DNA from: Spiroplasma endosymbiont of 'Nebria riversi'
Lineage (GTDB): Bacteria > Bacillota_I > Bacilli_A > Mycoplasmatales > Nriv7
Assembly (NCBI RefSeq): GCF_018831625.1
Contig: NZ_CP065193.1
Location: forward strand, 372,001 to 436,000
Direction: 5' to 3'
Length of the DNA: 64,000 nucleotides
Each line of letters begins with the position of its first letter. The stretch's first letter is position 1. The position numbers and the translations under genes are program-made. A model generated the notes under the pieces. It was not told the DNA's origin and did no database searches. It saw nothing but the letters and a program-made list of their open reading frames with translations. This document shows positions 2,804 through 45,618 of this stretch, piece after piece.

Positions 2804-4020
2804 GTATGGCGACCCTTTTTTGGACACTTTTTATTTAGACTGTCATTTTCTTAAATTCAACAGGCGTTAAATAATTTAAACTGCCATGTATTCTACGAAT
2901 ATTGTATCAATTAACAAAATCAAATAATTCGCATTTTAATTGTGTTAAATTTTCAAATTTTTTACCCTTGATAAATTCCGTTTTAAAAGTTTTGTAAGTT
3001 GTTTCAGCCACAGCATTGTCATAAGGACAACCCTTCGCGCTCAATGATCTTTTAATATTAAAAGTGCTTAAAATTTCATCAATGATTTTATTTTTGAACT
3101 CATTACCACGATCAGTATGAAATAAAGTTATTTTATTTAATGGTCGTGTTATTTTATGAAAAGCTTGTTGAACTAGTTCAGCGGTTTTTTTGGTCTGACA
3201 CTATAGCCAATTATTTCTCGATTAAACAAGTCAATTAATAAACAAATATAATGTCATTTTCCTCCAACTTGCACATATGTTAAATCACTAACAACAACTT
3301 CATTAGGTTTTTTGTTATTAAATTGACGATTTAAAACATTACTAATTTGGTCATTATTAACCATTGTTTTATGATTACGATATTTTAATTTGGTGTATTT
3401 AGAAACCAAATTATTTTTGATCATAAGGAATCTGATTTTTCGACGTGATAAGACAATATCTTTTCTCATTAAAACAGCTTTAATTTTACGAGCACCATAA
3501 ATTTTACGACTTTTATTAAATGCACTGATAACTTCTTCTTCATAATTATTAACATCATACTTAACACAATTATTAGTTTGATAATAATATGTTTATTTTG
3601 CTATTTTTAATATTTGACACATTTTTAGCGCGGGGTGTTTTTCTTTATTATTGTTAATCATTCCTATTTTTTGCCAATTATCAGTGCTGCTTGCTTTAAA
3701 ATGTCATTTTCCATTCGTAATTGTTGGTTTTCTTTTCGCAAGTAAATTAATTCATTTTCTTCGACAGTGCGATTATCTTGCACTTTAAATGACCCAAAAT
3801 TATTAAAATTTTCAATTCACTGATATACGGCTGATTTTGAAATTCCGTATTCTTTAATAATTTCAACAATGCTTTTTCCGTTTTGATAAAGCATGACAAT
3901 TTGTTTTTTAAATTCATTTGAATATGAGTTTTCTCCCATTTCTATCTTCCTACTTTCTTAATAATTTTATTTTATTTGAAAGTCCACATAAATATGGTCC
4001 AACTTATTGTAACCCATCCA
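2804..4020 (-). mobile_element. IS3-family element, copy 3 (tandem with copy 2)
   Basis: A full-length 1217-bp minus-strand element ending in TGG and CCA (TGGTATGGCGACCC at 2804, GTAACCCATCCA at 4009-4020). orfB is broken twice: a TCA to TAA change near its start (codon for the Ser of AKSTYYY, about 3594) and a base loss in the T-run at 3185. Together with copy 2 it forms a direct tandem with a shared junction at 2803/2804. Confidence 0.85.
3664..3939 (-). CDS. IS3-family OrfA (intact, 91 aa; [11 protein letters not shown] variant)
   Basis: Same protein as at 2458-2733 with a Lys3-to-Glu change. HTH and leucine-zipper-like segments are conserved and the stop is TAG after GKK. Its partner orfB in this copy is broken, so only the small DNA-binding product could be made. 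Confidence 0.7.
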
Positions 4021-4205
4021 TATAACCTATTCATTCTAATGAGTGGACTTTTATTTTAAAATTAGGATTATTACGCTAAAGTCCATAATAGTGTTCTACA
4101 ATTTCAGCAACACTATAATAAACGCCGACTAACTAATTGGTTTCGCAAGAATATATAACATAACAATATTTTTTAGCCATTTCGTACTTGTTCAAGATTT
4201 AATAA

Positions 4206-4575
4206 CTAATTTAAATCAGTTTCTTTTATTCATTCGGGAATAATATAATTAAAATTAATATCTTTATCAAGTTCAGATTTTTTAATATTTTCTAAAAATT
4301 TTTGTCGATTTTTAATTTTAACTTCTTCATACAAATTAATAATTTCTTGCCCCTTAATGGTTGTAATTTTCTGTGCACCGTTGGTATCATACTTAATAAC
4401 TTCATAATCATTTTCTGTAAAAATACCGACCACCATCTGATTTGCATATTTAATTGATGGGTATACTAGTTTGCGAGGAACTCAAGAACCACCACCACTA
4501 TTGGGAATTGATAGTAAAATCACATTTGTTGTTTCGGCAACAATATATTTTTTATTCAAAAATAAATTTTTTAGT
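4206..4575 (-). pseudogene. Plectroviral small protein (KYIVAETTN / IPW family), start deleted
   Basis: It is homologous to 16698-17075 and, more distantly, to 18678-19007, 29287-29616 and 49721-50047. The frame runs from LKNLFLNKKYIVAETTN to NYIIPEWIKETDLN with TGA=Trp. The start codon, its ribosome site and the preceding 60-odd bases are gone. The deletion endpoints lie in CTAACT, which occurs twice in the V1 copy (in the palindrome at 16603-16620 and just after the ATG). Function unknown. No membrane segment or catalytic motif is evident. Confidence 0.65.
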
Positions 4576-4712
4576 TAGCTAACTAGGTGCGAGAAATGCT
4601 CGAAATTACCAAAAAGCATTTTTTGGTGCACCTAAGAAGTGTTCTCATATTTACAACACAATTTTTAGATAGAATTTAGTTTTTTGTTTGAACAAGTTAA
4701 TAAAGTTAGTTT

Positions 4713-5855
4713 TTTTAATTTTGTCGAAAACTCTTGATAAAATAAAAAAAATCATCAACTTGATAATTTTAAAAGGCTTTTATGTAAAATTACTATTTTT
4801 ACTTTAATTTTTTATACATTAAAATATAATAACACTGTTTGTTGGTTTGGAGTTAAAACCTTATGTTGGTATTTTCATTTTCAGAGATTTAAATAATTTT
4901 GAATATTAGTAAAACCTAAACCATGATAATGAATTAAGGCTTCTTTAAGACTAGATTGTAATTTACTGATTTTATTTAAGTTACGATAACTAGCTTCAGG
5001 ATTAATTGTTGTTTTAGTTACAGATAGAGTAGAATTTGTTTGTTTTGCTACTAAAAAATATAATTTTTGCATATCAGAAGTAATAATTGAATTTTGATTA
5101 ATTAATTCTTTGTTCATATTTTCAATAACTCATTGTTTTTGTAAACGTTTGGTGTTTGTGGATTTAACATAAATATTGTTATTATTATCAACTGCCATTT
5201 GAATACAACATTTAGTATTAGTTGCGAATGGGTCAAGGCGAATTCTTCGCGGATCAGTTTTATGTTTGAAATTTCCTTTATGAATTTCTTTAATAAATGT
5301 TTCATCGATTTGGATTTTACCAGATAATTTTTTAAATTTTAATTGGGTATTTTCTAATTATTTTGATTTCATTAATTTTTGACGATTATATCAAGCAGTT
5401 TTTAATGTATTTTTAATAAAACGAGAAATTGTTTTACTAGATTGCCCCGGCAATGAAATTTGAATCAATAAATTTCATTGTTCATAATTTAAATGACTTC
5501 AATAAATAAAAATGATTACGGAAAGCGTCAAAACTTGCACGGCAATTTTTACATAAATATTTTTGTTTTCATTCTGAATTATGTCCATTTTTAACGATGG
5601 TAAGATTCACATTTAGGGCATTTAATACCTTGTGCTCTAAATTTTTGATCAATTTCATTTAAACGTTTTTGTTTTTTTATTAATTCTGCTTGTTGTTTGA
5701 CTTTTTCATAAAATTCTAAAAATTGATCATCTGTTAAAGTATTTACTAGTTCTTGAATTATTTTTTCCATAATTATTATCCACCTCTATCATATTAAAAA
5801 TATACCTAAAATTAAGTATATTCAATAAATATCAAGATTTTTCTAAAAAATTAAA
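4713..5855 (-). mobile_element. IS1595-like element, copy B, 1143 bp with target duplication
   Basis: Both ends can be fixed by comparison with the uninterrupted virus sequence at 16440-16490. A 10-base block AAGTTAGTTT occurs on each side (4703-4712 and 5856-5865), and part of it is the target duplication. IS1595 elements are known to make 8-bp duplications, which fits. The ends are imperfect inverted repeats (AATTTTGTCGAAAACTCTTG and CAAGATTTTTCTAAAAAATT). The transposase is broken by CAA to TAA (KQLEN) near 5357 and a base insertion near 5510. Confidence 0.85.
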
Positions 5856-34170: not shown

Positions 34171-34305
34171 ATGGAACAAAAAATATTTAAGAAACGCGAA
34201 GATTTAAAAACTTTTATTGAGTAACAAGATGAACCCCATTTTTATATTATTAAAGAAGAAATTAAAACATTTTTAAAAAAACAAGTGATTGCCTTAATAA
34301 TATAA
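34171..34305 (+). pseudogene. Jag N-terminal domain remnant
   Basis: MEQKIFKKREDLKTFIE, stop, QDEPHFYIIKEEIKTFLKKQ: a short frame with TAA inside at codon 18 and a second TAA just before the jag ATG at 34307. The position is that of the Jag-N domain in full-length proteins. The gene may have lost this domain by mutation, leaving a shorter product. A short upstream peptide is the alternative. Confidence 0.45.
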
Positions 34306-34306
34306 T

Positions 34307-34777
34307 ATGAGTGATGTTAAAACCTATTTAGTTGCTGTTTTGCAAGGACTTTTAACAGAGTTAGACTTTAATGATATTGAAATTAAAATTTCACAAATTA
34401 ACTATGAAACGATTAAAGTTAATATTAATTGTGATAATAATGCGTTATTAATTGGTAAAAATGGTTATGTATTAAGTTCTTTACAAAATTTATCTAACTG
34501 TTATTTATCAAGTAAGTTCCATCGTCATTATATTGTTAAAGTTGATGTTAATGACTATTTTCAAAGACAAGAGAGTAATTTAATTAATTTAGCAAAAAAC
34601 ACTGCTAAAAAAGTATTGTTTACTAAAAATGATATGGCATTATTACCAATGCCTAATAATCAGCGAAGAATTATTCATAATGAATTAAAAAAATTCGATA
34701 AGGTTATTAGTGAGTCTCAGGGTTCAGGTAATAAAAGAAATATTGTTATTAAATATCTTGAAAGCAGTGAAATCTAG
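34307..34777 (+). CDS. jag: Jag/KhpB RNA-binding protein (KH plus R3H domains)
   Basis: 156 aa. KH domain with the GxxG-type loop LIGKNGYVLSSLQNLSN (about residue 46), then the R3H domain MPNNQRRIIHNELKKFDKV, whose R-x-x-x-H pattern is clear. It binds RNA in the cytoplasm. In Firmicutes it partners with KhpA in division control. Its place between yidC and mnmE is standard. It lacks a fused N-terminal Jag domain. Confidence 0.88.
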   Translation: MSDVKTYLVAVLQGLLTELDFNDIEIKISQINYETIKVNINCDNNALLIGKNGYVLSSLQNLSNCYLSSKFHRHYIVKVDVNDYFQRQESNLINLAKNTAKKVLFTKNDMALLPMPNNQRRIIHNELKKFDKVISESQGSGNKRNIVIKYLESSEI

Positions 34778-34826
34778 TCGTTAATGTCTAGATTTTTATT
34801 TTTAAAAAAGAAATTTGGTGATATTT

Positions 34827-36191
34827 ATGATTAATGATACGATTATTGCTTTAGCAAGTGCTCCTCTTAAACAAGCCATTGCTATTATTAGAGTTAGTGG
34901 TCCAGAAACATTTTCACTTATTAATAAAGTATTTAATAGAAATATTTTAAATGCTTCAAAAGAAAAATATTTCGGAAGGATTATTAATCCTAATACAAAG
35001 ATAATTATTGATGAAGTAGTTTTAGTTTGCTACTATAAAAGTAGTTCATTCACTGGTGAAGATACTATTGAAATTAATTGTCACGGCAGTATGTTAATTG
35101 TTAATAAAATTATTCATTTGTTATTAACAATTATGAAAAATGATAATATTCGGTTAGCAACTGCGGGAGAATTTACAAAAAGAGCATTTTTAAATGGAAA
35201 AATTGATTTATTACAAGCACAAGCGGTTAATGATTTAATTAATGCGCCTAATGATGAGGCTTTATCATTAGCAATGAACAGTTTAAATGGTAATAATAGC
35301 AAATTATTAAAAGAACTTGAAACAAGATTATTAGAATTAATAGCTAATATTAGTGTTAATATTGATTATCCTGAATATGATGGCGTTGAAAAATTAACCC
35401 AAAAATTAGTTTTAACTCGTACAAATGAACTTTATAGTGATTTATTAACCATTACTAAACAAAATAAAATTGCTCAGGTTATTAACGATGGCATTGATAC
35501 TGTAATTATTGGTAAACCTAATGTAGGGAAATCAACTTTATTAAATGCTTTATTAAAAGAAAATCGCGCGATTACTTCAACAATTGCTGGAACAACTAGA
35601 GATATTGTTACCGGAAAAATAAATATTGATAATATTTCTTTAAACTTAATTGATACCGCAGGAATTAGAAATACTAATGATATTATTGAACAATTAGGAA
35701 TTCAAAAATCAAAACAGTATTTAGAAAAAGCCCAGTTAATTTTATTAATGCTTGATGGTAGCAATATTTTAGATGATAATGATATGCTATTACTAGAACT
35801 AGTTAAAGATAAAAATTGTATTATTGTCATTAATAAAGTTGATTTACAACAAAAACTATCTGCTTCGCTTTTGCCATTAAGTTTAGTGCCCATAAGTGCT
35901 TTAAACAATGATTTTAATCCCTTGATAGATAAAATTAAAGAGATGTTTTTACAAGAAAAAATTAATTATCATAATAATTTAATTTTGACATCAACCCATC
36001 ACCAAATGTTATTAGATAAAATTAAAATGACAATTGATGAAGCAATTCAAGCTTTAAACAATAGTGTGCCGTTAGATTTAGTAATCCTTCATTTTCAAGA
36101 AGCGTGAGATTATTTACAAGAAATTAATGGTAAAATAATTAAAGATAATCTCTTAGACGAAATGTTTAGTCGCTTTTGTCTAGGTAAATAA
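34827..36191 (+). CDS. mnmE: tRNA modification GTPase MnmE
   Basis: 454 aa. N-terminal tetrahydrofolate-binding domain (DTIIALASAPLKQAIAIIRV; FTGEDTIEINCHG), central helical domain, GTPase with P-loop IIGKPNVGKST (about 226), DTAGIR (about 271), NKVD (about 335), and the invariant C-terminal FCLGK with the catalytic Cys. With MnmG it modifies U34 of tRNAs. ATG at 34827 chosen because it fits the family start. A TTG 12 nt upstream is in frame but lacks support. Confidence 0.95.
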
Positions 36192-36203: not shown

Positions 36204-36972
36204 GTGAATGGTTTATTTGATACGCATTGTCATTTAGTCTCAGATTCATATCAAGATGAAGATATAAATAATATTTTAGAAGAAGCGAAATTAATTGGTG
36301 TTAATTTAATTTGTAATGTTGGTTATGATTTAAAAACTAGTAAATTAGCAGTTGACCAAGCATTTTCTTCACCCGATGTATTTGCAGCTGTTGGCATTCA
36401 TCCTAACGATGTTAGTAATCATCAAGAACACCATCTTTATGAATTGGAAGAACTAATTAAAACAGGAAGTGTCTGTGCTATTGGTGAAATTGGATTAGAT
36501 TACTATCGTAATCAAGATAGTAGCAATTTACAAAAAGAATGATTTATTAAACAAATTAAATTAGCTAAAAAATATCAATTACCAATTTTAGTTCACATTC
36601 GTGATGCTTTTGATGATGCTTATGAAATTTTAAAACAATATGATGTTGTTGGCATTATGCATTGCTTTTCAGCAAATACAAAAACTGCTAATAAGTTTAT
36701 TGAATTAGGATATTATATTTCTTTTTCAGGAATTCTTACTTTTGAAAATGCTAAAGATTTGCAACAAGTTGCTAAAGATCTTCCCTTAAATAAAATTGTT
36801 TTAGAAACTGATGCTCCGTATTTAACACCTGTTCCTTATCGGGGAACAAAAAATTATCCAAAAAATATTATTTTTACTGCTAAAAAATTAGCAAGTTTAA
36901 AAAAAAATATCCTTAAATGATGTTATTATCACAACAACAAATAATGCAAAACGAATTTTAGGAATTAAATAA
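36204..36972 (+). CDS. TatD-family metal-dependent deoxyribonuclease (C-terminal frameshift in an A9 run)
   Basis: About 256 aa from GTG at 36204, well spaced after AAGGAG. Metal-binding motifs of the family: LFDTHCHLVSD, GEIGLDYYR, ILVHIRDAFDDA, MHCFSA and LETDAPYLTP. The frame of the body ends early at 36944, but shifting one base at the A-run 36899-36907 gives the expected ending DVIITTTNNAKRILGIK at 36972. Either a sequencing or strain indel, or a real truncation of the last 20 residues. Role: 3'-5' nuclease in DNA/RNA turnover (family). Confidence 0.85.
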
Positions 36973-37038: not shown

Positions 37039-38054
37039 TTAGTAAGAATTTTGAGTTTGTTCAAAAATATCAGTTTCAAACTTTTTAGTACCATTAATAA
37101 CTGATAATAAAGGATATTCACCAATTTTATTTGGTAATTCTAACTTTTCTGTAATGTATTTATCCATTCCTTTTAATAATGTCCCACCACCACAAATCGT
37201 AATGCCATTTTTATAAATATCACCAGATAGTTCCGCTGGAGTTATTTCTAATGTTTGAGTAATTACTTCAATAACTGGTAGCATAGCTTGTTGTAAAACT
37301 TGCCGAATTTCTTCTGGTTTTAATTTTGCTGCTTGGGGTCTACCATTAACATAGTGCCGACCATAAATTTTAAAATTATTTTCATCATCATATTGTGTTA
37401 AAGAACCAATTTTAATTTTAATATTTTCTGCTGTCGTGCTACCAATTTCAATTACATATTGAGTACGAACATATTTTTGAATTTCATTATTAAAATAGTT
37501 TCCCACAATTTTAATAGATTTAGATAATACAATGTTACCAGATGCAATAACGGCAATATCAGTAGTTCCGCCTCCCATATCAATAATTAGTTGTCCGTGA
37601 GGACTATTAATATTTACGCCTCCCCCAATGGCCGCCATTTTTATTTCTTCTTCAATAAATACTTTTTTAGCACCTAAATTGTGACCAATTTGTTTTAAAG
37701 CTTTATTTTCTAAATCAGTAACCGCTGAAGGACGAGCCAATAATAATGCTGCATCATTAATACGGTTTAAAATTTTTAAATTCATAAAAATATATTGTAA
37801 TTGGGCTTCTGTAGCTTTAACATCACTAATAACCTCATTGGTCATTGGTTTGATAACACGAATATTTTTATTACCTTTTCCTACCATTTTTCTAGCAGCT
37901 TCGCCTACTGCAATAATTTCATTACAATTAATATTGTATACAATGATTAAAGGTTAATTATAAACAATGCCTTCTCCTAAAATATAAATTAATGTATTTG
38001 CTGTGCCTAAATCAATTGAAATATATTTAGGTTTTTGCCTTTTTCCTTTGAAAC
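37039..38054 (-). pseudogene. mreB: MreB-type actin homolog, 5' end cut by IS3, nonsense at the start
   Basis: The frame begins at an IS3 end (38055) with KGKRQKPKYISIDLGTANTL, the MreB phosphate-1 motif. It then meets TAA in VYN-stop-PLIIV near 37953, where MreB proteins have VYNEPS. The remainder is open: RKMVGKGNKNIRVIKPM, ARPSAVTDLENKA, IIDMGGGTTDIAVIASGNIV (phosphate 2) and ITICGGGTLLKGMDKYI. Spiroplasmas use several MreB paralogs for helical shape and swimming. This paralog appears lost. A product could only start internally (37887) and would lack part of the nucleotide pocket. Confidence 0.85.
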
Positions 38055-38474
38055 TATGGATAGGTTACAGTAAGTTGGACCATATTTATGTGGACTTTCA
38101 AATAAAATAAAATTATTAAGAAAGTAGGAAGATAAAAATGGGGAAAAACTCATATTCAAATGAATTTAAAAAACAAATTGTCATGCTTTATCAAAACGGA
38201 AAAAGCATTGTTGAAATTATTAAAAAATACGGGGTTTCAAAATCAGCCATATATCAGTGAATTGAAAATTTTAATAATTTTGGATCATTTAAAGTGCAAG
38301 ATAATCGCACTGTCAAAGAAAATGAATTAATTTACTTGCGAAAAGAAAACCAACAATTACGAATGGAAAATGACATTTTAAATCAAGCAGCACTGATAAT
38401 TGGCAAAAAATAGGAATTATATTAACAATAATAAAGAAAAATATTCCGTGCTAAAAATGTGTCAAATAAAAAAA
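38055..38474 (+). mobile_element. IS3-family element, 5' fragment inserted in mreB
   Basis: It starts TGGATAGGTTACAGTAAG at the mreB break and runs past orfA to the first codons of orfB (AAAAATGTGTCAAATA), where a deletion derivative of the same element follows. Confidence 0.8.
38138..38413 (+). CDS. IS3-family OrfA (intact, 91 aa)
   Basis: [20 protein letters not shown] to [11 protein letters not shown] with minor changes (KKYG, KENEL, ILNQ). HTH and coiled coil intact. No orfB follows, so only the DNA-binding protein could be made, which in IS3 elements can act as a repressor of transposition. Confidence 0.75.
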
Positions 38475-38812
38475 TGGAGAGGTTACAAGTAAGTTGGACC
38501 ATATTTATGTGGATTTTCAAATAAAATAAAATTATTGATGAAATTTTAAGCACTTTTAAAATTAAAAGATCATTAAGCAATAGGGGTGTCCTTATAACAA
38601 CGCTGTGGCTGAAACAACTTACAAAACTTTTAAAGCGGAATTTATCAAGGGTAAAAAATTTGAAAATTCAACATAATTAAAATGCGAATTATTTGATTTT
38701 GTTAATTGATACAATAATCTTAGAGTACATGGCAGCCTAAATTATTTAACGCCTGTTGAATTTAGAAAATGACAGTCTACATAAAAAATGTCCAAAAAGG
38801 ATGGCCATACCA
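38475..38812 (+). mobile_element. IS3 internal-deletion derivative I, 338 bp (MITE-like)
   Basis: Left end (about 65 bp) joined directly to the orfB C-terminal region (from ATTGATGAAATTTTAAGCAC) through to the right end GGCCATACCA. The join lies in AAAATAAAAT, which is present in both parent regions. The same junction is present at 48747-49085. Confidence 0.8.
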
Positions 38813-39402
38813 TTTATTAAAGAAATTTATAAAGGAAATTTCAAACATAAAACTGATCCACGAAGAATTAACCTTGATCCATTCGCAACTAATACTAAAT
38901 GCTGTATTCAAATGGCAGTTGATAATAATAACAATATTTATGTTAAATCCACAAACACCAAACGTTTACAAAAACAATGAGTTATTGAAAATATGAACAA
39001 AGAATTAATTAACCAAAATTCAATTATTACTTCTGATATGCAAAAATTATATTTTTTAGTAGCAAAACAAACAAATTCTACTTTATGTTTAACTAAAACA
39101 ACAATTAATCCTGAAGCTAGTTATCGTAACTTAAATAAAATCAGTAAATTACAATCTAGTCTTAAAGAAGCCTTAATTCATTATCATGGTTTAGGTTTTA
39201 CTAATATTCAAAATTATTTAAATCTCTGAAAATGAAAATACCAACATAAGGGTTTAACTCCAAACCAACAAACAGCGGTATTATATTTTAATGTATAAAA
39301 AATTAAAGTAAAAATAGTAATTTTACATAAAAGCCTTTTAAAATTATCAACTTGATGATTTTTTTTTATTTTATCAAGAGTTTTCGACAAAATTAAAAAA
39401 AT
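38810..39402 (+). mobile_element. IS1595-like element, copy E, 3' part
   Basis: The transposase is present from FIKEIYKGNFKHKTD to the C-terminus. The 5' half has been replaced by the IS3 derivative ending at 38812. The right end ATCAAGAGTTTTCGACAAAATT is at 39376-39397. Confidence 0.8.
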
Positions 39403-39562: not shown

Positions 39563-41095
39563 ATGATATTGATTAAAAAAAATTCTAACCATTGAAAAAA
39601 TATTAATAAAATTACTAAAAAAGTAACTATTGCTAGTAAAAATAAATTGTGATTAGGATTAATTTTAACTTTTACAGTTATTGCGATAATTATTCCTGGT
39701 GTATATTTATTAACATTAGATATGGTTAGTGTTTTTACCAATGCCATTAATTTAGAAGATGGCGAAAGTAAAAAGATTCCGGATATTAGTCCTAAAATCC
39801 TTAATCCTGATGATGGTGAAGGGTTAACTGTTAAACCGATTCCTGATGATGATTCAGCACTGGGGATTGTTAATGATAGGTTACTTTTAGATGGTGCTAA
39901 AATTAATGTTAAAAACTATGATAAGTTTAAAAGTTTACGGCTTATTGAATTAGAGAATTTAGTATTAAAATATTTTAAAAATTATGTTCAAAATAATAAA
40001 TTTTTACAGACAAATAATAAAACTTATAAAAAATTTGATTATCGTTATAAATATCTTACTGCCGAAAATGGTAAAAAAATTGATAATAGTTTTATTCAAG
40101 ATGATGTGAAAGTAAAAAAAGTGTTAGTTAAAGATATTGAAAGATATGAGATTAATCGCCCTGATATTTATGAAGTTGTTAATGCTAATATTTTTTCACT
40201 ATCCTTTAATTTAAAAATTATTAATACAAATGTGTTTTATAAAAATTATTTTGACTTTTATTCATTTCAAGGGTCTAGAGAGCAAATTTCTCAAAATAAT
40301 ATAACTAATGCTATTACTGGTTATTTAACTAGTGAACGGGTGTTGTTTACTGATAAAGTATTAGGAAAAGAAATTTATCGCGAAGTAAATGATTCGTTAA
40401 GAGATTTTATTTTTGCAAATCCAATTGAGTTTGATAATGATATTAAGATTAAACCAATAATTACTACACAATGTCTTAATGAGTGCGCCACTATTAATGA
40501 TTGAGATACTTTTAGAGAGAAGTTATATGATGCATCGCAAGTTCTTATTGAAGAAAATAAAATTTATCATTCTGATTTAGTAATTTATATTTATTTTATT
40601 AGTACTAATATTAAAGTTGATAAGTTATATGAATCCTATGAGCAATTGCCAATTCAGCCTTTTATTGTAACTAATCATTATACTAATAAAGTTGCTAGTC
40701 AGAAATTATTAATTAGTTCCACGAATTGATTGAAACAGAAGCGCAATAAAACTATTGCTGAATATATTGCTTTTGCTATTTCATTTCCAAAACTTGTTTT
40801 AGATAAAATTCAAGATTGAGAATTTTTAAATGATAATTGAAAAGATAGGGTACAAAAAGGAATTTATAATTATCTTTATAATTATCTTGTAACTAATAAA
40901 AAATTTAATATTATTGATGATGTTAGTTTACCAATATTATCGAAAAATCAATATCCTAATTTATTAAATTTAAAAAGGAAGTTAAACATTATTGAAATTA
41001 AGCAGATTAATTTTAATGCCTACAAATATACTATGAATATTATTGGGTTTAATGATGAAGAAATTATTTTAACGGGAATTAGTTTTTTTGCTTAG
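39563..41095 (+). CDS. Operon protein 1: single-pass membrane protein with large ectodomain
   Basis: 510 aa. A basic cytoplasmic N-terminus (LIKKNSNHWKNINKITKKVT), one membrane helix (LWLGLILTFTVIAIIIPGVY, about 30-50), then about 455 residues predicted outside, mixed alpha/beta with many Asn, Lys, Asp. No Cys pairs or known domain. First of seven genes. Its plan resembles protein 4 (42348). Unknown function. The context suggests a surface complex handled by the RavA/ViaA pair. Confidence 0.65.
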
Positions 41096-41142
41096 AGAAA
41101 TTATTGTTAATATTGTTGCTAAAAATATTGTGTTATTAAATA

Positions 41143-41754
41143 ATGAAAGAATGGTTAAAAATGTTAAATAGAAATGATTTAAATGAAAGTAATGATATTT
41201 ATGAATTAGGTAAAAAACGATTAGATCAAAGTAATAATCGCATTATTACTTTAAAGCAAGATATTAATGCCACAAGAATTTACTATGGTTCATTTTTAGA
41301 AATAATGGCACGATTAATATTAATTTTAAGTCAGGTTTTATTTATTGTTACTATTTTTTTGAATGCTATTAATTATGCGAAATGATTTTTAGATTTTAAT
41401 AGTGAAGTCACAATAACCATTAGAATGATTATTATTTCCATAATATTTATTTTTTCAACGATTATGGCGTTGTTGTCATCATTATTTTTTATTATTCCAT
41501 TATTAGTGTGTAAAACTATTGCTAGTATTAAAAGTTGGTTAATTGTGTTTATTTTAACTGGTAGTATTATTTTTTCTCTTGTTTTTGCATTTAGTATTTA
41601 TTTGAGAAATTATAGTCTTGGAACAAATAATAGTATTATTTTAAGTATTGTGGGATTTATTTTATTAATAAGTGGGGCGATATTGTTATTAAGGAAAGTA
41701 AAAAATATGTCGCGTGGTTTAGAAAAAGCAATTATTGAAAGTTATTTTCTTTAA
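41143..41754 (+). CDS. Operon protein 2: four-helix membrane protein
   Basis: 204 aa. A charged N-terminal 50 residues (NDIYELGKKRLDQSNNRI), then four hydrophobic helices and a basic tail (LRKVKNMSRGLEKAIIE). The first helix MARLILILSQVLFIV and the STIMALLSSLFFIIPLLVCK block resemble protein 5 (GARILIIFAQICLVV; STLYSLLYFIPMAVCR), so the two look paralogous. Unknown family. Confidence 0.6.
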
Positions 41755-41814
41755 ATATTATTTTGAACATTAAATTTAAAATTTTATAAAAGATGATGAA
41801 AAATGGTGATATAA

Positions 41815-42348
41815 GTGAGTTTTAAATTAATAAAAAAAGCAACATTAAAAGTTTGGTGAAATACTAAACGAGAAATAACATTGCGGTTATTAATAATTAT
41901 TAATGTTGTTTTATTTTTATGCTTAAGTTATTTCATCGGTTTTGGTTGAGGACAAAATTTGCAAATTGATAAATTTATTATTGGTTTAATAGCGGATAGA
42001 AAATTTTTTAAAAATTCATATTATTTAGGACTAAGTAGTTGTGGTTTGACAGCATTTTTAACATTAATTACGCTTATTGTAATATTAAAAGTTAAAGAAG
42101 AAAATTTTTTGAAAACATGAGTCATCATAATTGCTGTCTTATGAATAATTTATTTTTTAATAGTTTTTACTATTAGTTTATTAAATAACTATTGACCACA
42201 ATGATTATTAACTAGTTTTATTATTTTTAATTTAAATTTTCTTATTTTAGAAGTTAGTACCATTTGTTTATTTAAGGAAATAAAATATCAAAAAATTTTA
42301 AAGTTATCTTTTGAATATAAAAATGATAATAAAATTGGAGTAAAATAA
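41815..42348 (+). CDS. Operon protein 3: four-helix membrane protein
   Basis: 177 aa from GTG. Hydrophobic helices at about 25-45, 70-95, 105-130 and 135-155, with a short basic tail (FEYKNDNKIGVK). Its stop overlaps the next ATG (TAATG), showing translational coupling. Unknown family. Confidence 0.6.
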
Positions 42349-43442
42349 TGACAAAAAAAGCTAAAAAATCACAAAAGAAAAAAATAACGATTAGTAATAA
42401 TCTTTATTTAAAATTATCAGTTTTTTTTTCAATTTTAATTATTATTAGTAGTACTGGTTTTACTATTTTTAAATCTTATGATTGGCCATTTGAATATAAT
42501 CCTTATAATAAAGATTGGATTAATTTTTCAAAAGATATTGATAATATTTTTTTATCCGGCAAAGAACATAAATTTTTTGTTGCTGAAAAATCTAACGAAC
42601 AAAATTTCTTAACAAAAGATTTAGCGAATTCAATTGTTAAAGAATTTAATGAACGTTCACTAGTTAATAGTTTATCTTTATTTAATTATAGTTTACGAAA
42701 AGAATTCTTAGATAAATTAAATATTAAAAAAGATGGTTTAAAGTTTTTTTATGAAGCAAAGGAAATTAAGTATCTGAAACTTTTGCCAGTTAGACATAAT
42801 ATGAATAGTTATGGTGTTGTTAATCTTAGTCATAATAACTATTGGTATAATTTAAAAATTAATTATTTATATCAAATAGTTATATATACTGATAAACATC
42901 CGAAACCAATAATTTTAAATAAAAGATCTTTATTTACTTATGAGATAAATAATATTGATATAAAAACATTAATCCAAAAATATGTTAAAAATTTCCCTAG
43001 TTTTTTTGATTTAAATAATTTTATAAATAATCATTTTCTTGAAATTTGTAATTATGATATTAATCATATTCATCAACATTTTCAAAATCAACTTGAATTT
43101 AAGGTATACTATAATACGCAATATATTAATATTTTAAAGCAGTTAGATAGTTTTAGCTTTAATAAACAAAATTTATTGTATATTAAACTAAGAAACTTAC
43201 AAGTTAATTTATCAAAAACAAATATTAATTTTAATATTAAGGAATTACCTAAATATGAAGGAAGAAAACAAATTGATAATAACCCCAGTTTACCACCAAC
43301 TTTTTTGGGAACAATCCTATTAACTGTTAATGATCAGCAATTAGAAGTAAAATTTAAGTTTCAACCACAAGAAATTATTATTTTTGAATCTGAGGCTGAC
43401 AATGTTGCGAATTTAAAAATGAATACAGGAGAAGTTAAATAA
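42348..43442 (+). CDS. Operon protein 4: single-pass membrane protein with ectodomain
   Basis: 364 aa. A very basic start (MTKKAKKSQKKKITISNNLY), one membrane helix (LSVFFSILIIISSTGFTIF), then about 320 external residues (WINFSKDIDNIFLSGKEHKF onward). Stop overlaps the next ATG (TAATG). Same topology as protein 1. Unknown family. Confidence 0.65.
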   Translation: MTKKAKKSQKKKITISNNLYLKLSVFFSILIIISSTGFTIFKSYDWPFEYNPYNKDWINFSKDIDNIFLSGKEHKFFVAEKSNEQNFLTKDLANSIVKEFNERSLVNSLSLFNYSLRKEFLDKLNIKKDGLKFFYEAKEIKYLKLLPVRHNMNSYGVVNLSHNNYWYNLKINYLYQIVIYTDKHPKPIILNKRSLFTYEINNIDIKTLIQKYVKNFPSFFDLNNFINNHFLEICNYDINHIHQHFQNQLEFKVYYNTQYINILKQLDSFSFNKQNLLYIKLRNLQVNLSKTNINFNIKELPKYEGRKQIDNNPSLPPTFLGTILLTVNDQQLEVKFKFQPQEIIIFESEADNVANLKMNTGEVK

Positions 43443-44101
43443 TGGTGTCAAAAGAAAAAAAATTATTTAGTTTTAGTGAACAATTCCCAGAATTTGATAA
43501 ACTAGAACAAGAATATAATGCTTCACCGCCAACTGAGAAATTAAATGAATTAGATGAACAACGATTTCAATATGTTAATCCGCTTCAAAATAGTTTGTCG
43601 CAACGAAAAATGTATTGAGATTCGAAATCGGAAAGAGGTGCTCGGATTTTAATTATTTTCGCACAAATTTGTTTAGTAGTTATTTCGTATTTTTTTGGTC
43701 GCGATATTCTTGGGCAATCAATTTTATTATTAGCTGATCAATTAGATTTTCAATTTATTACAGATTTAGAAGTATCATTTGATAAAATAATTGGAATAAT
43801 TTTTTTAACTTTATCGACATTATATTCATTATTATATTTTATTCCTATGGCCGTTTGTCGGCGTGCGGGCACTATTTTTGGTTGAGCAATAGCATATATT
43901 ATTTTTGCTGTTTTTTATTTTTTAATAATGATGGTTTTTATTGTAATGGCTTTAGTAGTTTTTTCTAGTTTTAAATTAGTCGCGACTAATTTAGCAATTT
44001 ATTTAACAATGATTTTTATTTTAGTAGTAATATGAATTGTTGGTGCTGCGGTGTTAATTGTCAAAGCTGATGATATTAAACAACAAATAAGTGTTGAATA
44101 A
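43442..44101 (+). CDS. Operon protein 5: four-helix membrane protein, paralog of protein 2
   Basis: 219 aa. An acidic cytoplasmic N-terminus of about 65 residues (FSEQFPEFDKLEQEYNASPP), then four helices (ILIIFAQICLVVISYFFG; IIGIIFLTLSTLYSLLYFIP; WAIAYIIFAVFYFLIMMVFI; YLTMIFILVVIWIVGAAVL). It ends 17 bp before the ATPase gene. Unknown family. Confidence 0.6.
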
Positions 44102-44118
44102 AAAGGAGAATGAAAATA

Positions 44119-45618
44119 ATGGCAAACACAGAACTTAGGCAACGAATTTTAAAGTTAATGCAACAAGCATCAGTTGGTATTTTTGAGAAAGAAAATGTTT
44201 TTAAATTGGCAATATTGGCAATGTTAACTGGTGAATCAATTTTTCTTTTGGGAAAACCAGGCGTAGCTAAGTCATTAATTTCACGGCGAATGAAATATTT
44301 ATTTTGCCAAGCCAATGTTTTTGAAAATTTAATGAATCGTTTTTCAACGCCAGAAGAAATTTTTGGACCAATTTCAATAACTGATTTACAAAATGGTATT
44401 TATCGGCGGTTAACAACAAATTATTTGCCAAGTGCGGATATTGTATTTTTGGATGAAATTTGAAAAGCTGGACCTTCAATTCAAAATACATTGTTAACTA
44501 TTATTAATGAAAAAATATTTCGTAATGCGGGGAAGGATTATAAGGTACCATTAAAATTATTAATATCAGCATCAAATGAATTGCCAGAAGTCAATCAAGG
44601 ATTAGAAGCATTATTTGATCGCTTTATTATTCGTTATGTGGTTCACGGTATTGCTAATGAAGAAAATTTTAATGCTATGATTGAATCAGCAACTAAATTA
44701 GATGTTATTGTTGATGAACAATTACAAATTACTAATAGTGATTATCATACTTGGTTACAAGAAATTGCTAAAGTAAAATTATCAGATTTGTCATTAAAGT
44801 TTATTTCTCGGTTTCGGAAAAAATTATATTTAGTAACTGCAGGTAAAGCATATATTTCTGATCGCCGTTGAAATAAGATTGCTTTTTTGATGAAAGCATC
44901 AGCTTTTTTTAATGCTCGTCTTGAAACTGATAAACCAGATTGAATTATTATTGTTCATTGTATTTGAGATACAGTAGAACAACAAAAAGAATATGCTAGT
45001 TTATTTTATGAAGTTTATACTAATGCATTAACATATGAGTTAAAAGAAAAACAAGAACAACTAGAAAATCGATTAGATAAATTAAATGAACAATTAAATA
45101 AAGTTCAATTAGAAAATATTAGGTTTTCAGTATATACTAATCCTTTTAAAGGTCAATTAGTTGGTAAATATCACCGCTTATTAGTAACAAATAAAGATTT
45201 GCCGATTTGTTTTCTTTCATTAGCTGATTATCAAAAAATTAGAAAAAATTTTGATAATTTTGAAATTATTAAATTATCTTTCGGGAAAACCTTAAATCAA
45301 TTAAATCGTCATATTAAAGTCAATTTATCTTATCATACCGATAACAAGTTAATTGATAGCAAAAAAAATATTTATCCGATTGAAATTGAAGATTTAGAAT
45401 CAACTTTAAATCAAGTTATAAAAATAACAAAAGAGGTTGATAAAACGGAAAAAGAAATTAAAAATTTAACAAAAGATTTTAAAAATGAAAAAGAACGTTT
45501 ATGTTCTTTATCAGCAATATTTTTTGATGAACAGTATAAAATGATTTTAGATGTTGTTTTTAATGATTTAGAAACTATTGATGAAGAAAAATTTGATATT
45601 TTACAAATTAATTCATAA
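44119..45618 (+). CDS. RavA-type MoxR-family AAA+ ATPase
   Basis: 499 aa, the length of RavA. Walker A LLGKPGVAKSL at about residue 40, the RavA block FENLMNRFSTPEEIFGPISI, Walker B DIVFLDEIWKAGPSIQNTLL, sensor 1 LLISASNELPE, arginine-finger region EALFDRFIIR and sensor 2 AYISDRRWNK. The C-terminal half has a coiled coil and a small beta domain, as in RavA. In E. coli RavA acts with ViaA as a chaperone on membrane complexes and lipids. Those respiratory clients are absent in Mollicutes, so the client here is probably in this operon (inference). Confidence 0.88.

Follow-up and report, generated by a model that had tools for sequence, protein, structure and literature searches.

A broken mreB gene beside tatD

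The window, a stretch of 64,000 nucleotides from the genome that we call G000, carries on its minus strand a broken mreB gene that lies between tatD and a group of insertion sequence remnants (Table 1). Four other genomes of the same genus (G001–G004; n = 5 with G000) were available for comparison, and the intact orthologue of G002 (C1:1323710-1324738), hereafter gene D, was taken as the reference.

Table 1. Position of the mreB remnant, its lesions and its neighbours in the window
Feature	Position	Strand	Basis or remark
mnmE, second conserved neighbour	34815..36191	+	sequence recognition; blastp to the same position in G060 and G194
tatD, conserved neighbour marking the ancestral mreB locus	36204..36944	+	TatD_DNase, 253 bits
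mreB pseudogene, MreB4/MreB1 class	37039..38056	-	codons 5-342 of the intact G002 orthologue; start codon gone
Remaining 282-aa open frame from an internal ATG	37039..37887	-	without the first 60 residues, including DLGTANT
Premature stop, TAA for GAA (Glu38 of the orthologue, in VYNEPS)	37954..37956	-	comparison with G002
IS3-family piece 1: left end, OrfA (38138-38413), start of orfB	38057..38474	+	PF01527 (HTH_Tnp_1)
Second IS3 left end, repeat of 38057 onward	38475..38536	+	
IS3 piece 2: 3' part of orfB and right end	38523..38812	+	
Another repeated element	38811..39401	+	ORF 38756-39298, IS1595/ISXO2-like match

Translation of the minus strand over the pseudogene reads ...DLGTANTLIYILGEGIVYN*PLIIVYN...QNSY*, with stops as asterisks. 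The MreB_Mbl profile (PF06723) matched this whole stretch with 368.2 bits (profile positions 3-322) and its open 282-aa part with 304.9 bits, the cut-off being 27. Identity to the G002 orthologue was 97.2% at the DNA level (1018 bases) and 95.7% at the protein level (282-aa frame from the internal ATG), and the assignment to mreB is therefore not due to chance. The homology stops at 38056, and the left end of an IS3-type element, beginning at the next base, replaces the first four codons. The premature stop cuts off the N-terminal DLGTANT segment, which has a role at the ATP site, from the remainder, and the frame is thus not intact. Beyond this TAA, no further stop or frameshift was seen in the window mreB.

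The original prediction, made from the letters of the window alone, was of a broken MreB paralogue with an IS3 inserted at its 5' end and a TAA for the Glu of VYNEPS. The broken paralogue is borne out by the profile score, the lost start and the stop, and the TAA was found exactly where it had been placed, with the rest of the frame open. As for the insertion, an IS3-type left end does abut the gene, but it belongs to a decayed nest and not to one intact IS3. OrfA of piece 1 scored 43.7 bits with the HTH profile PF01527, and this domain and the repeated ends identify the IS3 family; the pieces match other copies in the G000 genome at 91–96%. The IS1595/ISXO2-like match of the neighbouring repeated element (E = 0.00087, 19.8 bits) is below the Pfam cut-off of 27.

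A few other features of the surroundings were recorded. A row of large ORFs at 39563-45618, two of which (510 and 364 aa) had no Pfam match, leads to a MoxR-type AAA ATPase (bpMoxR, 164 bits). The A-run of tatD (36890-36944) is one base longer than in the four relatives, through sequencing error or in reality; the extra base changes the end residues, giving a protein of 246 aa where three relatives have 255 and G002 has 271. The jag/khpB gene (R3H and KhpA/KhpB KH domains; 34171-34777) has a frameshift near its start in G000. Of the relatives, G002 has it whole, G004 has it with two frameshifts, G003 has it in fragments, and in G001 an IS3-type element interrupts it.

An ancestral cluster, intact in one of five genomes

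In G002, four intact mreB genes stand in the order ksgA-A-B-C-D-(IS)-tatD-mnmE, all four with full-length PF06723 matches (393–413 bits). RrnaAD (ksgA), tatD and mnmE also flank the mreB clusters of two genomes of another family, G060 and G194, which indicates that the locus is ancestral. ksgA is present in 5/5 genomes of the genus. Relics of D adjoin tatD in all four genomes other than G002, with 95–99% DNA identity to it. Apart from the window gene, these relics measure, among the matches listed, 296 bp in G003, 86 bp in G004 and 83 bp in G001, and they consist of the end of D including a few bases past its stop. G001 and G004 have retained nearly the same end of the gene, yet the sequences adjoining it differ. 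On the ksgA side, homology to the spacer between ksgA and A of G002 stops 172–181 bp into the probe in the genomes that have lost the cluster, except for G003 (775 bp), and in all four it ends before the start of gene A.

The original prediction had proposed phylogeny for deciding which paralogue this is. We built a maximum-likelihood tree of the window gene, the four G002 genes and MreBs selected from elsewhere in the order. Class names were taken from the S. citri gene order (mreB2, mreB3, HP, mreB4, mreB5; PMC9663586), which the cluster of G060 fits, and from PDB 7BVY, the S. citri MreB5 (PMC8432965), which is nearly identical to the G060 gene on the tatD side. The window gene grouped with the MreB4/MreB1 group of other genomes (UFBoot 100), and by this position it is classed as MreB4/MreB1, two classes that the tree does not separate, and not as MreB2, 3 or 5. 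In the same tree, A and B fell on the MreB2/5 side and C on the MreB3 side (86), with weaker placing.

Remaining mreB copies in G000

We searched the whole G000 genome (1.44 Mb, two contigs, 97.6% complete) with PF06723 and obtained five hits, four of which belong to broken genes. The fifth is not an mreB; read by eye, it is a DnaK (617-aa frame, 620-aa ORF). We also compared the genome at the DNA level with the G002 cluster (4951 bp), setting aside repeats and short low-scoring matches and scoring the best 40 of 404 candidates; among the matches listed, only 1355-2774 and 3896-4920 of the cluster were represented. Copy B and the start of copy C lie together at C1:690266-691691, beside an IS3 end. 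Copy B is frameshifted, with stops at codons 96, 123 and 280 and insertions of one and five bases, and copy C is reduced to its first 90 codons, a 5' quarter. By the profile search and the cluster comparison, neither a trace of copy A nor an intact mreB was found in G000. Since the assembly is 97.6% complete and some stretches of the genus genomes contain runs of N, an intact copy could lie in missing sequence.

A second intact copy of the same paralogue, which the original prediction had named as the observation that would speak against it, was thus searched for across both contigs and not found. The accompanying expectation, that the loss might be buffered by the other paralogues, fails: none of them was found intact. 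For the same reason it is very improbable that a single paralogue was lost recently while the others keep the cell helical. The frame of D, open apart from its one stop and close to its orthologue, would agree with such an isolated loss, but the stops and frameshift of B, the truncation of C, the missing A and the lack of any intact mreB in the whole-genome search all stand against it.

Slightly less probable again is that sequencing or assembly errors make intact genes look broken. The one-base difference in the A-run of tatD and the one-base frameshift of jag in G000 are typical of long-read error; the lesions in the mreB copies, on the other hand, are a base substitution, an insertion of an IS, large deletions and additional nonsense changes, and the cluster is also missing from three other species, each assembled separately. 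Finally, retention of the 282-aa internal ORF as a shortened MreB with a new role would agree with its ATG and open frame, but has next to nothing to commend it: the ORF is without the first 60 residues including the DLGTANT segment, it has changed at 4/4 of the differing positions in the tail, at which G002 and G003 are alike, and most or nearly all of the gene has been deleted in three other species.

Number and timing of the losses

In the protein tree, G000, G002 and G004 stood apart from G003 and G001 (support 99), and G000 was sister to G002 with a support of 82; the four genes behind this value include one whose tail is frameshifted in G000. The nucleotide species tree, with a saturated outgroup and supports of 50–69, was used as a hint only. 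Breakpoints inside ftsA coincide to within 5 bp in G001 and G003, and this agreement supports their kinship. Because of the tree grouping, and also because the remains at the locus differ between genomes, the MreB set appears to have been lost repeatedly in the genus; two separate losses are well supported by these sequence comparisons and three would fit the best tree, the third depending on the support of 82. The absence of the cluster from 4/5 genomes would also follow if the set had been lost once, at the base of the genus, and regained later by transfer in G002, but this is hardly credible, since the G002 cluster occupies the conserved ksgA/tatD position, the closely matching D relics of the four losers adjoin tatD, and D of G002 and the window gene are together sister to the whole outside MreB1/4 group.

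We next considered the age of the loss of D. Between G000 and G002, D differs at 27 sites in 330 codons, 10.5 synonymous (S) and 16.5 amino-acid changing (N), and ten control genes gave 56 N : 78 S over 3009 codons. We had expected significant relaxation of selection on D; the excess of N against the ten controls is a trend only (Fisher p = 0.085). Copy B had no N excess (12 : 10, p = 0.35), and four single control genes also showed N > S (9:4, 8:4, 5:4 and 3:2). The contrast looked larger against yidC and mnmE (0.42 for D versus 0.06 and 0.12); in the same comparison the values were 0.28 for rnpA and 0.43 for tatD, whose tail is frameshifted. Over the final 94 codons of D, G003 sides with G002 at 4/4 of the amino-acid differences from G000, which places all of them on the G000 branch. 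The loss of D is probably recent, with the decay of the system as a whole further along in A, B and C. The original prediction of a recent loss of one of about five paralogues therefore holds for the little change in D since the split, but not for the extent, as the whole set is affected and the loss recurs in the genus.

Lineage of the genome and MreB across the order

Among 298 genomes drawn from the order, an MreB match at E <= 1e-30 was obtained in 70. Five or more matches, a count that may include a DnaK, were found in 40/298, all from family f6, which we label the Spiroplasma family because its genus g25 has fib and an MreB5 like that of S. citri. Smaller sets elsewhere in f6 (two matches in G182, three in G158, four in G197) argue against a simple rule of five. 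Matches to the MreB profile in other families, at about 1e-60 in f5 (1–4 per genome), 1e-114 in f10 and 1e-102 in f11 (one genome each), are possibly MreB-like proteins.

G000 shows the marks of a Spiroplasma lineage, namely plasmid matches, the ksgA-mreB-tatD-mnmE order and TGA inside ORFs. The first 20 kb of its contig 2 (28.8 kb) match 33 PLSDB records, 33/33 from Spiroplasma, and the matched genes are annotated as an ICE-type conjugation ATPase, ParA and T4SS DNA-binding proteins. From genome size and plasmid content, and from a family standing apart from other spiroplasmas, we infer that the genus corresponds to the Ixodetis clade.

Fibril gene and predicted cell shape

We searched for the fibril gene with the N-terminal half of the fibril protein as query. 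Outside the genus, fib was found in 10/10 genomes tested (E 1e-148 to 1e-73), with ORFs of 507–512 aa in the eight loci checked. With the same query, fib was found in 0/5 genomes of the genus; four gave matches of 25–29% identity only, at places also matched by the nucleosidase family, and G001 gave no match at all. The best match in G000, a 237-aa ORF of 27% identity, is itself a PNP_UDP_1 protein (99.4 bits). The nucleosidase-like domain PF01048 was rejected as a marker, as it picks up nucleosidases and does not single out fib.

Spiroplasmas owe their spiral shape and their swimming to the MreB family of actin-like proteins. As neither an intact MreB nor a fibril gene was found, the gene content predicts that G000 cells are non-helical and non-swimming, that is, unable to swim by kinking. 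A single MreB suffices to make a wall-less mycoplasma helical, and S. citri ASP-I without functional mreB5 is nonhelical and nonmotile (both PMC9663586). S. ixodetis is described as tightly helical (PMC7609405), and the loss would thus not be clade-wide if the genus is the Ixodetis clade. An Ixodetis-clade Spiroplasma of Cephus cinctus, probably from the same broad clade as G000, forms non-helical filaments by SEM, the shape predicted here (PMC6716498). The source itself warns that this shape may be an artefact, and its main text has 0 occurrences of mreB. Given this non-helical symbiont and the helical S. ixodetis, variation within the clade is to be expected.

We compared this situation with other losses of shape genes, all as far as the cited texts describe them. 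In S. citri ASP-I an mreB (mreB5) is inactive, as here, and helicity and motility return with a working mreB5 (PMC9663586); that case concerns one gene in one strain with four others present, whereas here the MreB4/1-class gene and its paralogues are affected in several species. Helical form has been lost among Spiroplasma relatives in the Mycoides-Entomoplasmataceae clade (PMC8025503), which is comparable, but there the loss is old, completed and confined to one clade, whereas here relics are visible, there are several losses and one relative has four genes. In S. sabaudiense and S. helicoides the fibril gene is probably disrupted (PMC7609405), as 5/5 genomes here have no working fib; those species are still helical, whereas 4/5 genomes here have lost MreB too.

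The mreB5 defect of S. citri ASP-I is reportedly a nonsense mutation.

Division genes

The ftsZ, ftsA and sepF genes are open in G000, in a block MATE-mraZ-mraW-ftsA-ftsZ-sepF at C1:242400-249100 (mraZ to sepF by Pfam names). FtsZ is encoded by 394-aa ORFs in G000, G001, G003 and G004; in G002 the search gave no hit and no first-look candidate. Of this 6.7-kb block, only a repeat of about 38 bp was found in G002 with the best 40 of 451 candidates scored, and the five repeat matches examined did not reveal the position where the block would have stood. The four genomes that have lost mreB keep ftsZ and sepF, and G002, the sole keeper of MreB, shows neither. FtsA is whole in G000 and G004; in the other two a rearrangement has cut its gene, with about 33 C-terminal residues separated in G003 and only decayed pieces left in G001. 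The C-terminal end of FtsA is membrane-anchoring, and this anchoring end may have been lost in G003 and G001. mraZ is also decayed in G001.

Reciprocal loss, with two ways of wall-less division in the genus (G002 by MreB-driven movement, the four relatives by FtsZ) and the two systems mutually dispensable, is a doubtful reading of this distribution, because it turns on one genome in five. The absence of ftsZ from G002 may also be a repeat-flanked block lost in assembly, the result of missing stretches, or coincidence. The G002 sequence begins with dnaA (Bac_DnaA, 188 bits) and ends on the rnpA/yidC side, as a closed chromosome would, which argues against a fragmentary assembly; the dropping of a repeat-flanked block would be compatible with it. 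For an ftsZ deletion of M. genitalium, replacement of FtsZ by motility is reported (PMC7609405), and reciprocal loss, if true, would offer a natural test of this idea.

Probable dismantling of a bacterial-actin system

Taken together, we consider the window to hold the best-preserved relic of a dismantled bacterial-actin system whose losses are repeated in the genus, and give this reading a probability of roughly 85%. The ancestor had the ksgA-mreB(A,B,C,D)-tatD-mnmE cluster that is intact in G002. In G000 the cluster is split, and insertion sequences border the cuts: D remains at tatD, with a nonsense mutation and its start covered by the IS3 nest, and B with the front of C lies 280 kb away. 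Selection on the cluster seems to have stopped, because all copies are lost, and division would proceed with FtsZ, FtsA and SepF, judging from the gene content. Other lineages of the genus, at least one and probably two, would have lost the set independently. A host-bound life with passage from mother to offspring probably removes the need to swim, and the many IS copies would have been available to break genes.

Both the family (MreB) and the process (reductive loss) are known; here the process appears to be caught in progress and repeated. Within the listings and abstract beginnings searched, there was no report of mreB loss in this group, and mreB is unmentioned in the main text of PMC8025503, PMC6716498, PMC13049210, PMC13085286, PMC9742256, PMC13240588 and PMC10849345. 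All Spiroplasma are stated in PMC9663586 to have at least five mreB genes. If the genus counts as Spiroplasma, 5/5 of its genomes break this rule, four with no intact copy found and one with four. The four would serve as natural knock-outs that have decayed to different extents, next to a closely related genome in which all four genes are intact and no fibril gene was found. A comparison of such sister strains could show what MreB and fibril do in a symbiont, and could also address whether passage to the host's offspring needs swimming.
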